A stretch of DNA of 64,000 bases from positions 1,689,001-1,753,000 of the forward strand of contig CP039459.1 of assembly GCA_004843165.1 (NCBI GenBank), in the 5' to 3' direction. This stretch comes from Acetobacteraceae bacterium. GTDB taxonomy: Bacteria; Pseudomonadota; Alphaproteobacteria; Acetobacterales; Acetobacteraceae. Shown in pieces: positions 6,082 to 35,170 of the stretch. The translations under genes and the position numbers were made by a program. Positions within the stretch are counted from its first letter, which is position 1, and each line of letters starts with the position of its first letter. The notes below the pieces were generated by a model. It saw only the letters and a list, made by a program, of their open reading frames with translations. It was not told the origin of the DNA and ran no database searches.

Positions 6082-7344
6082 TTCTCCTTTTCCAAGGGAT
6101 TGCTTGGCGATCATTTTTCGCAGGGCAGGAATTTTCTTAAAGAGGCCAAGCGTTGCCTGACGTCCTGCTCTGAGAATAGGATTTGAGCTACTAAAAGAGC
6201 GCTCCATTAAATCGCAAGAGGCGAGCAACGCCATATTATAGGGGCGTGTTTTGCGTTGATATGTTTTGAGAATTTTATCAGAACCGAGATCCTCCCCTCT
6301 GGAAAAGGCCTCTGTTAAAATCTTTTTGAGAACAGAGACATCCCTAAATCCTAAATTCATTCCCTGACCCGCAACGGGATGAAGGCCATGTGCGCTATCA
6401 CCGATAAGCGCAAGCCTCGATGCGATATATTTATGCGCATATTGAGAGCACAGCGGATATGTCCAGCGTGGGCCAATATTGGAAATTTCCCCCAGCTCTT
6501 TTTCAAGTTTGGGACGAAGCAGATTTAAAAAAGATTTTTCTGGAAGGCTTTTTAGGCGTGCGATCCATTCTGGAGTATCTGTCCAGACAATTGCGGAACA
6601 ATGCGGATGATTTTCCATGCCTTGGAGGGGAAGACGTGCGAAAGGACCTTCAGGTAAGAAATTTTCTAAGGCACTCCCTTGATGCGCATGTTCGTGAGCA
6701 ATTAAAGTGACAAGCGCATCTTTATGATAGGGGATGATTGTGAGGTCAATGCCGACCTGTTCACGTAACTGTGATTTTCTACCATCTGCGGCAATGACTA
6801 AAGCGGCTGTAAAGTTTTCTATCTCTACAGCATCTTCTTTTTGGGCGGAGATATATACTTTCTCTTGTGATGTTTTAAAGTCGAATTTTGCCGTATAGGG
6901 AGAGAGGACGGTCAAATTAGGGCAAGTTTTTAGGGCGTGTGTAATGGCCGGTAAAAGATCAGCGGCCTCCACCATCCAGCCAAAAGGTTCTTTTTTTGGG
7001 AGGTCACTTGGAAGAAAAGAAAAGCCTTCCATATTTTTTAGCCAAGAGAAAGCAGGTTTGAAGCAATCTTTGACATGAATGATATTGATGGCTTGCGGAA
7101 GATTGGAAAAATTTTCCCAAATTTTTGTTTTTTCTAAAAGCGGACGAATGCGGGCATTGAGGGCATAGGCTCTGCCATCTTGAGCAAGAATTCTGTTCAG
7201 CGGAAGTTTGCGCCGCTCCAACATTAGAACCTTGAGGCCTTTTTGGGCGAGAGAAATGCCGAGAACAGCCCCAATAGGGCCAGCGCCATTGATGCAAATA
7301 TCAAAATGTGTCGTTGGTTCCGAAGCAGTGAAGTTTTGTACCAT
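6076..7344 (-). CDS. UbiH/UbiF/Coq6-family FAD-dependent monooxygenase
   Basis: A flavoprotein hydroxylase of the group that adds hydroxyls to the ubiquinone ring. It has a Rossmann FAD motif near the start (DICINGAGPIGAVLGISLAQ), DGRKSQLREQVG in the middle, and the second FAD motif LIGDSAHGLHPVAGQGMNLG at about residue 310, which is characteristic of this family. The length of 422 residues is typical. Its ATG overlaps the TAA of ispE by one base (TAATG), so translation of the two is likely coupled. Which ring position it hydroxylates (UbiH, UbiF, UbiI or UbiL type) cannot be told from the sequence alone. The C-terminal tail is rich in basic residues. Confidence 0.85.
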   Translation of the reverse strand: MVQNFTASEPTTHFDICINGAGPIGAVLGISLAQKGLKVLMLERRKLPLNRILAQDGRAYALNARIRPLLEKTKIWENFSNLPQAINIIHVKDCFKPAFSWLKNMEGFSFLPSDLPKKEPFGWMVEAADLLPAITHALKTCPNLTVLSPYTAKFDFKTSQEKVYISAQKEDAVEIENFTAALVIAADGRKSQLREQVGIDLTIIPYHKDALVTLIAHEHAHQGSALENFLPEGPFARLPLQGMENHPHCSAIVWTDTPEWIARLKSLPEKSFLNLLRPKLEKELGEISNIGPRWTYPLCSQYAHKYIASRLALIGDSAHGLHPVAGQGMNLGFRDVSVLKKILTEAFSRGEDLGSDKILKTYQRKTRPYNMALLASCDLMERSFSSSNPILRAGRQATLGLFKKIPALRKMIAKQSLGKGEG

Positions 7345-8285
7345 TAGAAATCTTTCATTGGATTTTGTTTACTAGGGTAGGTTTCTCCGCTCCAGATCCA
7401 CCAATTTTGAGGTGTATTAGGGGAAGAACGTAAAATCTTCCCAGCCTTCATGGCATCGTCTTTTGTCTTAAAAAGAGCAAAGCACGTAGCGCCAGAGCCA
7501 CTCATTCTTGCAATTTGGCAAGCAGGAAGCGTCTTGAGCTGAGAAAGAAGTTTTTGAATTTCTGGTACCAGTCGGATGGCTGGCAACTGTAAATCATTGC
7601 GTGTTTGGTTGAGAAAAGAAAATAAGCTTTCTGCGTTTTCCCATCCATTCGTAGGGAATTCAGGAAAAATTACCCGTTGAAGCTTTTCAATCTTTAATTT
7701 TTTAAAAATTGCAGGTGTGCTGACTTTAATGCGAGGATTAACCAGTAGAATTCCAAGTTCTGGAAAATTTGAAATTTTTGTTAGAATTTCACCAATACCC
7801 TGCATTCTTTTTGGCATTGAATCTATCGTGACAGGTCCGTCAGCGCCTAGTTTAAGGGCGAGTGCCCTATAATCTGCTTCTTTCAGATGGGGGATTGGAT
7901 AAAATTGGCGGAGTAAGTTTAGGGTGGCGGAGGCATCTGCGCTACCGCCGCCAATACCGGCTGCAACGGGAAGATTTTTTTCAAGGAAACAGTTAAAGAA
8001 GGGCAGAGAGATATTTTGTTCTTGAGCGGCTTCTCGCCAAATGCGACAGGCTTTCAGGACGGAGTTTGAAGAAATGTTTTTTTCAGCGTTAAGAATATCT
8101 GCAAAATCGCCGGAAATATGAAGAGAATCATGCCTTTTTGTTGGATTTTCCTCAAGGGAAATATTGTCCCCGTATTTCGCAAAAACGGTTAGGCTATCAA
8201 GTTCATGATAGCCATCCTTCCGCCGAGCTGTGACATGGAGAAAGAAATTAATTTTCGCAGGGGCAATGGAGTGAAGCGAAGAAAT
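7344..8285 (-). CDS. ispE: 4-diphosphocytidyl-2-C-methyl-D-erythritol kinase, apparent ATT start
   Basis: Fourth enzyme of the MEP isoprenoid pathway (GHMP kinase fold). The frame reads through the standard N-terminal block APAKINFFLHVTARRKDGYH, the ATP loop LPVAAGIGGGSADAS, LGADGPV and the C-terminal MSGSGATCFALF. The upstream in-frame stop is TAA at 8310-8312. Between it and the first internal ATG at 7817 there is no ATG, GTG, TTG or CTG, yet every conserved N-terminal motif lies in that stretch. The best start is ATT at 8285, which has GAAAGG 9 nt upstream and gives ISSLHSIAPAKIN, a normal N-terminus; ATT at 8267 is second choice. This gives 313 residues. A shortened call from 7817 would lose the active site. 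The gene leads a coupled pair with the UbiH-type gene. Confidence 0.85.
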   Translation of the reverse strand: MSSLHSIAPAKINFFLHVTARRKDGYHELDSLTVFAKYGDNISLEENPTKRHDSLHISGDFADILNAEKNISSNSVLKACRIWREAAQEQNISLPFFNCFLEKNLPVAAGIGGGSADASATLNLLRQFYPIPHLKEADYRALALKLGADGPVTIDSMPKRMQGIGEILTKISNFPELGILLVNPRIKVSTPAIFKKLKIEKLQRVIFPEFPTNGWENAESLFSFLNQTRNDLQLPAIRLVPEIQKLLSQLKTLPACQIARMSGSGATCFALFKTKDDAMKAGKILRSSPNTPQNWWIWSGETYPSKQNPMKDF

Positions 8286-8480
8286 GCTGAAAAACCTTTC
8301 ATCAATGATTTAAGTTGGCGGAACGTAAAGGATCTTCTGAAAAAGAATAACTTTTTCTTAAATGATTCTATGTATTATATGCTTATAATTTGATTTTATG
8401 AAAAAAGAATTAACGTTTTTGAGACTTTCTTCCTTAAAAGAAAGGGCGTTTACGGAGATTTTTGGAAGGTTCAGCTGGGG

Positions 8481-25054: not shown

Positions 25055-25804
25055 ATGGCAGGTCATTCCAAATTTAAGAACATTATGCACCGTAAAGGGG
25101 CGCAGGACGCACGTCGGGCACGTGATTTTGCAAAGGTGCTTCGTGAAATTACTGTTGCGACAAAAGAGGGATTACCTGATCCTGCAATGAATCCCCGTTT
25201 GCGTAGCGCTATTATTGCGGCACGTGATGTTAATATGCCAAAAGATAATATTGATCGCGCCATTAAGAAGGCATCTGGGGAAGGTGGCGGCGAAGATTAT
25301 ACAGCCGTTCGCTATGAGGGGTATGGTCCAGGCGGCATTGCTGTCATTGTTGAGGGCTTGACAGATAATCGCAACCGGACGGCCTCGGATGTGCGTGCGG
25401 CTTTCTCTAAACATGGCGGATCATTGGGCGAAGATAATTCAGTTTCTTTCATGTTTGATCGTGTTGGCGCCATTGTTTATCCACTTTCTATCGGAAGTGA
25501 AGAGGAAATCTTAGAGGCTGCGATTGAAGCTGGTGCTGAAAATGCAGAGCAAGATGAAGAAAACCACGAAATCTTGACCAGTCCGGATACCTTAATGGCA
25601 GTGAGAGAGGCTCTTGAAAAAACATTGGGAGAGCCTCGTTCTGCAAAGCTTGATTGGCGTCCTAAAAATACAATTGTTTTAGATGGGGATCAGGCTCGGA
25701 CGGCACTTAAATTGATAGATGCGCTGGAGGACAATGATGATGTTCAGACTGTCTATGCAAATTTTGATCTTTCCGATGAAATAAAGGCAGAGTTTTCTGA
25801 ATAA
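25055..25804 (+). CDS. yebC: YebC/PmpR-family transcription/translation factor
   Basis: A 249-residue cytoplasmic protein with the family start [19 protein letters not shown], the middle block [37 protein letters not shown], and the end [14 protein letters not shown]. The family was long described as DNA-binding regulators and more recently some members were shown to relieve ribosome stalling. As in most alphaproteobacteria it sits directly upstream of ruvCAB. Its last codons overlap the probable start of ruvC, so the coupling is tight. Confidence 0.95.
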
Positions 25805-26351
25805 AATCTCCTCATTTTCCCCAGTTTCAGGAAGATCTTCCGGTTCCGTACGTCTTTTAGGGCTTGATCCTGGTTTGAGATTTCTTGGCTGGGGCATTAT
25901 TGAGGCTGTTGGAAATCGTATTTCACATATTGCGGATGGTGTTTTGGTGACAGATAGCAGCATGTCTGTTCCGGAACGTTTATGTGCTCTTTATGAGGGG
26001 ATTGAAAAGGTTATCGAAACCTACTCTCCGCAAGAGGCTGCAGTTGAAGAAACCTATGTTAATGTCAATGGTGCTGCCACGCTTAAGTTAGGCTATGCTC
26101 GTGCTATGGCTTTGCTTGTGCCGACGCAGAAAGGGCTTCTTGTCGCAGAATATGGGGCAAAAGAGGTTAAGTTGGCGGTTGTTGGAACAGGGCAGGCGAC
26201 AAAACAGCAAGTTATGTTGATGATTAAGCATTTGCTGCCGGGGGCGACGTTAAAACGTGCAGATGCCGCAGATGCCTTGGCTATGGCAGTTTGTCACGCA
26301 TATCGTCGTGCGACAAATTTACGTATTGCACGGGGGAGGGTGAGTGCATGA
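25797..26351 (+). CDS. ruvC: Holliday junction resolvase RuvC, start codon not canonical
   Basis: Cuts Holliday junctions delivered by RuvAB. The catalytic Asp in [16 protein letters not shown], the Glu in [12 protein letters not shown] and the Asp pair in [14 protein letters not shown] are all readable, so the enzyme looks complete. The frame opens after TAA at 25782-25784 and has no ATG, GTG or TTG before the catalytic Asp. The first TTG, at 25875, lies after it and would delete it. The best candidate is CTG at 25797, which has AAGG 9 nt upstream and overlaps the yebC stop. This gives 184 residues, slightly longer than normal; ATC at 25806 is another option. It overlaps ruvA by 4 bp (ATGA). 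Confidence 0.85.
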
Positions 26352-33807: not shown

Positions 33808-33861
33808 TGGATTGATTTGTTGGGCGCTTTTTAAAGGGTGCCCAATAATTGAATGTTCTAA

Positions 33862-33877
33862 AAGGAGATTTCAAATT
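33862..33877 (+). promoter_or_regulatory. Strong Shine-Dalgarno placed before an ATT codon (tilS start)
   Basis: AAGGAG at 33862-33867 is followed by 7 nt and then the in-frame codon ATT at 33875-33877. It is as good a ribosome site as any in the window. No ATG, GTG or TTG lies near it in the tilS frame, which makes ATT the likely start codon. Confidence 0.7.
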
Positions 33878-35170
33878 CAGGATATTTTACCTGTTTCAGA
33901 TTTGGAATTTTCTGGACTTATGCGCCCCTATTTAGGGCTATTAAATTCTCAAAAATCTCCCTTGCTCATTGGGGTTTCCGGCGGAACGGATTCTATGGCT
34001 TTGGCTTATTTAGCCTCTCGCTTTATGGATGTTTTTGCTGTGATTGTAGATCATGGGCTGCGTACAGAATCTTCAGAAGAGGCAAAGCTAACAGCAGAGC
34101 GCCTTTCTAAACTTGGCATTGAAACGAGCATTATTCGCATAAATCCTGATTATTATCCAAAAGGGACTGGGGTTCAGGAGCGCGCGAGAGGCGCAAGGTT
34201 TGAAGCTTTTCATAAAATAGCCCGAGAGCGCCAAACAAATTTAATTGCTTTAGCGCATCATCAAGGGGATCAAGATGAAACGCTTTATATGCGTTGGCGG
34301 AAAAAAAGTGGAAATTTCGGTTTAGCCGGGATACAGCCGCTTGTAAAAGATAAAGATCTTTTTGTTTTGCGTCCTTTACTGCCCATTTCTAGAGCACGTT
34401 TACAGGCGACTTTGATCCGCAATAAAGTAAATTGGTGTGAAGATCCCTCTAATCAAAATCGTCACTATGAACGGGTTAGGGTGCGCCAGGATATTTCGAA
34501 AGATGAGCGCCAAAAAATGCGTCATCTTTCCGGTTTGGCACGCTGTAATATTGTTTTTGAGCGATATGCACTCTTTGAAGCGTGGAGAAAACATTTCCAA
34601 TGGCATGAAGATGCCGGCTGGGCTGAAATCTCTATTTCATTTTGGACAAATGTCTCGAAAAAAACGGCTCTGACGCTTTTAAGATATGCTATTCAGCTCA
34701 TTTCTGCCTCTCCGCATCCGCCTGCTTTTTCAGCAGTATCTCGTCTCTATATGGATCGTTTTGGAACGCTTGGCGGTGTGCAGCTTAAAAAATTTTTCAA
34801 AAGAGAAACTTATTCTCAGCCAACGTTTCTCCTTGTTCGGGAGATGCGAGATCTTCCAGTGATTTCTTTACAGGATTTATATTCTCAAAATTATGAAACT
34901 TCTTCTTTATGGGGAGGGGTCTGGGCTTGGGAAGGCGAGCATTTTGAGGATCCAGAAATAGAGGTTCGCCCTTTGGGAAATTTAAAAGAGCGTTTAAGGG
35001 AAAGAGACTTGCCATTGGAAGTCGCACAATCCTTGCCGTCTCTTTGGAAGGGAGAAGAATTTTTAGGCACCGTGGAAAAAAAAGGGACTTTAAAATCTTT
35101 TCCTAAATTATCCTTTAAATGGGCTGGAAATGATTTTTTAGCATTAATTAGGTGTAAAGAACTTTATTAG
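33875..35170 (+). CDS. tilS: tRNA(Ile)-lysidine synthetase, apparent ATT start
   Basis: Changes C34 of the CAU-anticodon isoleucine tRNA to lysidine; an essential enzyme. The PP-loop ATPase motif is LIGVSGGTDSMALAYLASRF near residue 30, followed by VDHGLRTESSEEAKLTAERL, GARFEAF, LIALAHHQGDQDETLYMR and the C-terminal domain. The usual homologues begin shortly before the PP-loop, and an ATT at 33875 fits this well (IQDILPVSDLEFSGLM) with a perfect AAGGAG 7 nt upstream. A TTG at 33812 gives a 21-residue extension that matches nothing and has no Shine-Dalgarno. The product is 431 residues. Convergent with a small gene; two inverted repeats follow. Confidence 0.88.
   Translation: MQDILPVSDLEFSGLMRPYLGLLNSQKSPLLIGVSGGTDSMALAYLASRFMDVFAVIVDHGLRTESSEEAKLTAERLSKLGIETSIIRINPDYYPKGTGVQERARGARFEAFHKIARERQTNLIALAHHQGDQDETLYMRWRKKSGNFGLAGIQPLVKDKDLFVLRPLLPISRARLQATLIRNKVNWCEDPSNQNRHYERVRVRQDISKDERQKMRHLSGLARCNIVFERYALFEAWRKHFQWHEDAGWAEISISFWTNVSKKTALTLLRYAIQLISASPHPPAFSAVSRLYMDRFGTLGGVQLKKFFKRETYSQPTFLLVREMRDLPVISLQDLYSQNYETSSLWGGVWAWEGEHFEDPEIEVRPLGNLKERLRERDLPLEVAQSLPSLWKGEEFLGTVEKKGTLKSFPKLSFKWAGNDFLALIRCKELY

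Follow-up and report, generated by a model that had tools for sequence, protein, structure and literature searches.

A probable AUU start codon in tilS, with stronger candidates in ispE and yqgE, in an Acetobacteraceae bacterium

The start region of tilS

At which codon does translation of tilS begin in this genome? The question is raised by positions 33862–33877 of the window, by which we mean the whole 64,000-nucleotide stretch analysed (bases 1689001–1753000 of the 1.92 Mb chromosome). The sequence at these positions is AAGGAG-ATTTCAA-ATT, whose final ATT shares the reading frame of the 431-codon tilS ORF. The arrangement reported in the initial annotation is therefore present as described. 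It consists, on the + strand, of a Shine-Dalgarno (SD) sequence (33862..33867; a 7-nt match, AAAGGAG, if counted from 33861), a spacer of 7 nt (33868–33874) and the proposed AUU start codon (33875..33877).

The gene (33875..35170, + strand) encodes TilS, tRNA(Ile)-lysidine synthetase. TIGR02432 (E 1.9e-44) and PF01171 both score over their cut-offs, the PP-loop ATP pyrophosphatase domain is present with its SGGxDS motif, and solved TilS structures (PDB 3a2k, 1ni5 and 1wy5) are matched. The usual codons found in frame near the N-terminus are TTG 33812, TTG 33902 and ATG 33920. The ATT had been regarded as the only good site here. Its SD match is 7 nt long; TTG 33902 and ATG 33920, each with a 3-nt match, had been overlooked.

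A stable hairpin is predicted between ybgF and tilS (33817..33848, + strand; -18.3 kcal/mol, z -4.7). The one congener compared (G001) also has one at the equivalent position, between ybgF/cpoB and tilS (L003:1435-1463), with a T-rich tail; in other genera the genes overlap there. Another stem is predicted over the SD and ATT of tilS themselves (33863..33913, + strand; -17.1 kcal/mol, z -2.5), and the structure at this start is matched by only 2 of 200 sampled ATG starts. The stem is not found in the congener, and was rejected as a conserved switch. A search for a sigma-70 promoter on the + strand between the hairpin and tilS, and for Rfam elements near tilS, returned none.

It had been suggested that two sites of this kind in 64 kb exceed what chance would produce. 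This does not survive a count of the motifs. In the window AAGGAG-N7-ATT is present once, where shuffles give 1.25 on average, and AGGAG-N6-9-ATT five times, where 12.6 would be expected. Nor is there a clear general excess of ATT codons with a good SD near gene starts in the sampled stretches of the genome, where 6 were seen and 4.3 expected; an earlier count using duplex energies was uninformative. The frequency of the motif across the window was accordingly dropped as an argument. Because the bare motif is no commoner than chance predicts, support for the ATT of tilS must come from its location, and the argument that takes the place of the counts is one of homology.

Conservation and the competing start codons

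TilS homologues of the same family share a P-V-x-x-x-E-F motif, around 20–30 residues before SGGxDS. In homologues with a recognisable usual start, 2–4 codons separate the start from the P, and ATT 33875 has four. The P-V lies upstream of TTG 33902, and the motif lies upstream of ATG 33920. As a side observation, tilS in several other genomes (L039, L047, L050, L051 and L054) is likewise without a usual start closely preceding the motif. In one genus the tilS frame has an ATT that runs into the stop codon of ybgF (ATTAA), an overlap that the ybgF C-terminus may impose.

The TilS of the congener is 57% identical. Aligned back from the ATG, 34 of the 45 nt from ATT 33875 to ATG 33920 match the congener, whereas successive 15-nt blocks upstream of the ATT match it at only 5, 5, 1, 2 and 3 positions. 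Coding-like conservation therefore begins at the tilS ATT. In this one congener there is no ATG, GTG or TTG between an upstream in-frame TAG and an ATGATG that comes after E-F, so that no usual start precedes the motif. An ATT is found there two codons further upstream, as ATT-CAG, with an SD match of only 3 nt.

The main rival to the ATT is ATG 33920 (33920..33922, + strand), the first ATG of the tilS frame. If translation began there, the upstream SD and ATT would be coincidental and the intervening 45 nt would be a leader. This is a usual codon, at a place where most relatives have Met; it would leave the full PP-loop domain and an N-terminus about as long as that of E. coli TilS, and the predicted stem would hide the upstream SD. 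Against this, the ATG has only the 3-nt SD match, and the 45 nt before it are conserved like coding sequence and encode P-V-x-x-x-E-F. In addition, four relatives (L034, L035, L036 and L049) are without Met at this place, and the motif is therefore translated in them. We consider a start at ATG 33920 unlikely. The other usual codon within this region, TTG 33902 (33902..33904, + strand), has the attraction of lying directly before E-F, but it has no SD beyond its 3-nt match, is TAT in the congener and would remove the conserved P-V, and its use is highly improbable.

A start at TTG 33812 (33812..33814, + strand) would require reinitiation after the ybgF stop (TAA 33805–33807), 4 nt away. Such coupling is seen in other genera, where the two genes overlap and TTG or GTG serves as the start of tilS in some cases. 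The initial annotation had discounted this codon as having no SD and as adding a non-conserved extension, and both statements are borne out: no SD match was found, and the 21 added residues are unconserved. Moreover a hairpin lies directly downstream, and in the congener a counterpart of this start is excluded by the in-frame TAG. Reinitiation here thus seems very unlikely. That the ATT is simply an ATG misread in sequencing is hardly credible, given that the independently sequenced congener is also without a usual tilS start, and that the ATT codons of ispE and yqgE (below) are exactly common to both species.

On the basis of the location of the ATT and its comparison with relatives, tilS is probably translated from AUU 33875–33877. 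Against this, the SD and ATT fall within the predicted stem, and the congener has the short SD match noted above. The strong SD would hold the 30S subunit so as to place the AUU in the P site, where the initiator tRNA (anticodon CAU) would pair with it at two positions and mismatch at the third. TilS would then begin with Met and be made at a low rate. IF3 would be expected to reject many of the AUU complexes, giving low output. In both species compared, a long SD followed by AUU would also serve two further genes, ispE and yqgE.

AUU candidates in ispE and yqgE

The initial annotation had also pointed to an apparent AUU start in ispE, and ispE is a clearer case than tilS. The gene (7344..8285, - strand) encodes CDP-ME kinase (NF011202, E 9e-89; TIGR00154). 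No ATG, GTG or TTG occurs in the frame from the upstream stop to the conserved PAKIN motif, nor does one precede PAKIN in the congener. Not until ATG 7817, half-way along the protein, is there a usual codon. The proposed AUU start (8283..8285, - strand) lies 9 nt after an SD sequence, GAAAGG (8295..8300, - strand), and the whole arrangement of GAAAGG, 9 nt and ATT-TCT-TCG is common to both species. In the readable outgroups ispE starts at ATG.

Comparison of 334 pairs of orthologous ORFs, drawn from 584 kb here and 640 kb in the congener, yielded one further clear ATT case, yqgE/algH, and also recovered infC (AUA). Some of these ORFs are not genes but rRNA regions or antisense frames, and 308 of the pairs remain under a stricter score. 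At yqgE (chromosome position 1418137, + strand; L079:9137) the sequence is AAGGAG-8-ATT, and in the congener, where the ATT is conserved, AAAGGAG-7-ATT. In neither species does a usual codon precede the LAGxFLIA motif, and the outgroups again have usual starts, these being for the two genes together mostly AUG.

The two genes were picked by their missing usual starts and not by their SD sequences. All four of their sites, in both species, nevertheless have anti-SD matches of 6–7 nt at good spacing. Such matches are found at only 17 of 200 conserved ATG starts and at about 1.3% of sites taken at random. These comparisons suggest that ispE and yqgE very probably start at AUU; the confidence is higher than for tilS because no usual codon can serve either gene. 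The proposal that this genome has more than one AUU start is thus well supported.

With tilS included, the count of ATT genes is three in about 330 pairs, which suggests a share of roughly 1%. Of the approximately 4300 genes of E. coli, two are known to start at AUU, and the proportion here is high by comparison. In a control pair of genomes (G077 and G151), no comparable case conserved in both was found among 239 orthologue pairs. The difference between 3/334 and 0/239 does not reach significance, and no claim is therefore made that this genus stands out in its family. Apparent frameshifts are also numerous in G151. Many of its ORFs (L179-L198) are truncated relative to its congener G077, pointing to decay or to frameshift errors in the G151 assembly. 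Scans of genome contigs for close relatives returned none.

IF3, known AUU genes and significance

A comparison of infC and IF3 with related species had been proposed as a check. In each of the 15 genomes of the family examined (L032, L131-L144) the start codon of infC is AUA, and IF3 itself looks ordinary. In the alignment the protein of this genus is not strikingly altered, and a relaxed IF3 was rejected as the cause. Before infC, most outgroups carry the SD ACAGGAG; in this genus it is the weaker GAGGA. In the initiator tRNA (L201, L202), an A29-U41 pair replaces the first of the three G-C pairs, but this variant is also present in outgroups (G077, G258) and was likewise rejected. Neither IF3 nor A29-U41 therefore explains the presence of several AUU genes.

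The pcnB gene of E. coli starts at AUU. The AUU of E. coli infC is the basis of negative feedback by IF3, according to Sacerdot et al. (1996) as cited in PMC2268962, and high IF3 inhibits non-canonical starts (PMC2268962). The genes proposed here would resemble these in having an AUU initiator behind an SD, with weak initiation, but they are different genes, and infC itself here uses AUA. What the analysis establishes directly is the sequences and how far they are conserved, the lack of usual starts in ispE and yqgE, and how strong the SDs are. We infer that tilS uses AUU, that its expression is low and, by analogy with non-AUG starts in E. coli, that it would respond to the amount of IF3. A tie between the level of TilS and IF3 through the AUU, as the initial annotation envisaged, is a plausible hypothesis, in line with published work on IF3 and non-AUG starts (PMC2268962, PMC13009471). 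A broader version, in which the genus has swapped AUG for AUU behind strong SDs in a small housekeeping set (tilS, ispE, yqgE and perhaps 10–20 more across the genome), the translation of which varies jointly with IF3 availability, is much more doubtful.

In Staphylococcus aureus, cvfC1 has an AUU start and ccpN and infC have AUA starts; these conserved non-AUG starts are paired with unusually strong SDs, and reporters show reduced protein yield (PMC13009471). The pairing of a non-AUG start with a strong SD is the same here. The starts there are proven by ribosome profiling and reporters, whereas the evidence here is comparative, and concerns housekeeping genes in an alphaproteobacterium-like genome. 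The AUU start of Borrelia burgdorferi pncA is experimentally proven and is needed for the fold (PMC13398362). The parallel is that pncA is a metabolic gene with its true AUU start upstream of the annotated one, but in tilS the stretch from ATT to ATG may be dispensable for the fold. From these sequence comparisons, tilS is likely, and ispE and yqgE are very likely, to join the AUU-initiated genes with a strong SD, which are a known kind. Although unusual, an AUU start is in keeping with an established means of holding a protein at a low level.

Few AUU starts have been documented, gene callers usually ignore them, and such proteins are therefore annotated too short or too long. If ispE were annotated from its first usual codon, half of the enzyme would be lost. 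Three AUU genes in about 330 pairs, two of them with the codon conserved in the genus, would provide a natural test of selection for low protein through a weak start combined with a strong SD, and equally of whether IF3 sets the protein level.

It is worth adding that ruvC (25791-25877 of the window, + strand) has no ATG, GTG or TTG before its catalytic LGLDPG motif, the first being TTG 25875, just behind the motif. In place of the ATC found here at 25806-25808, the congener has a TTG immediately following the yebC stop, and in place of a GTA it has a GTG.
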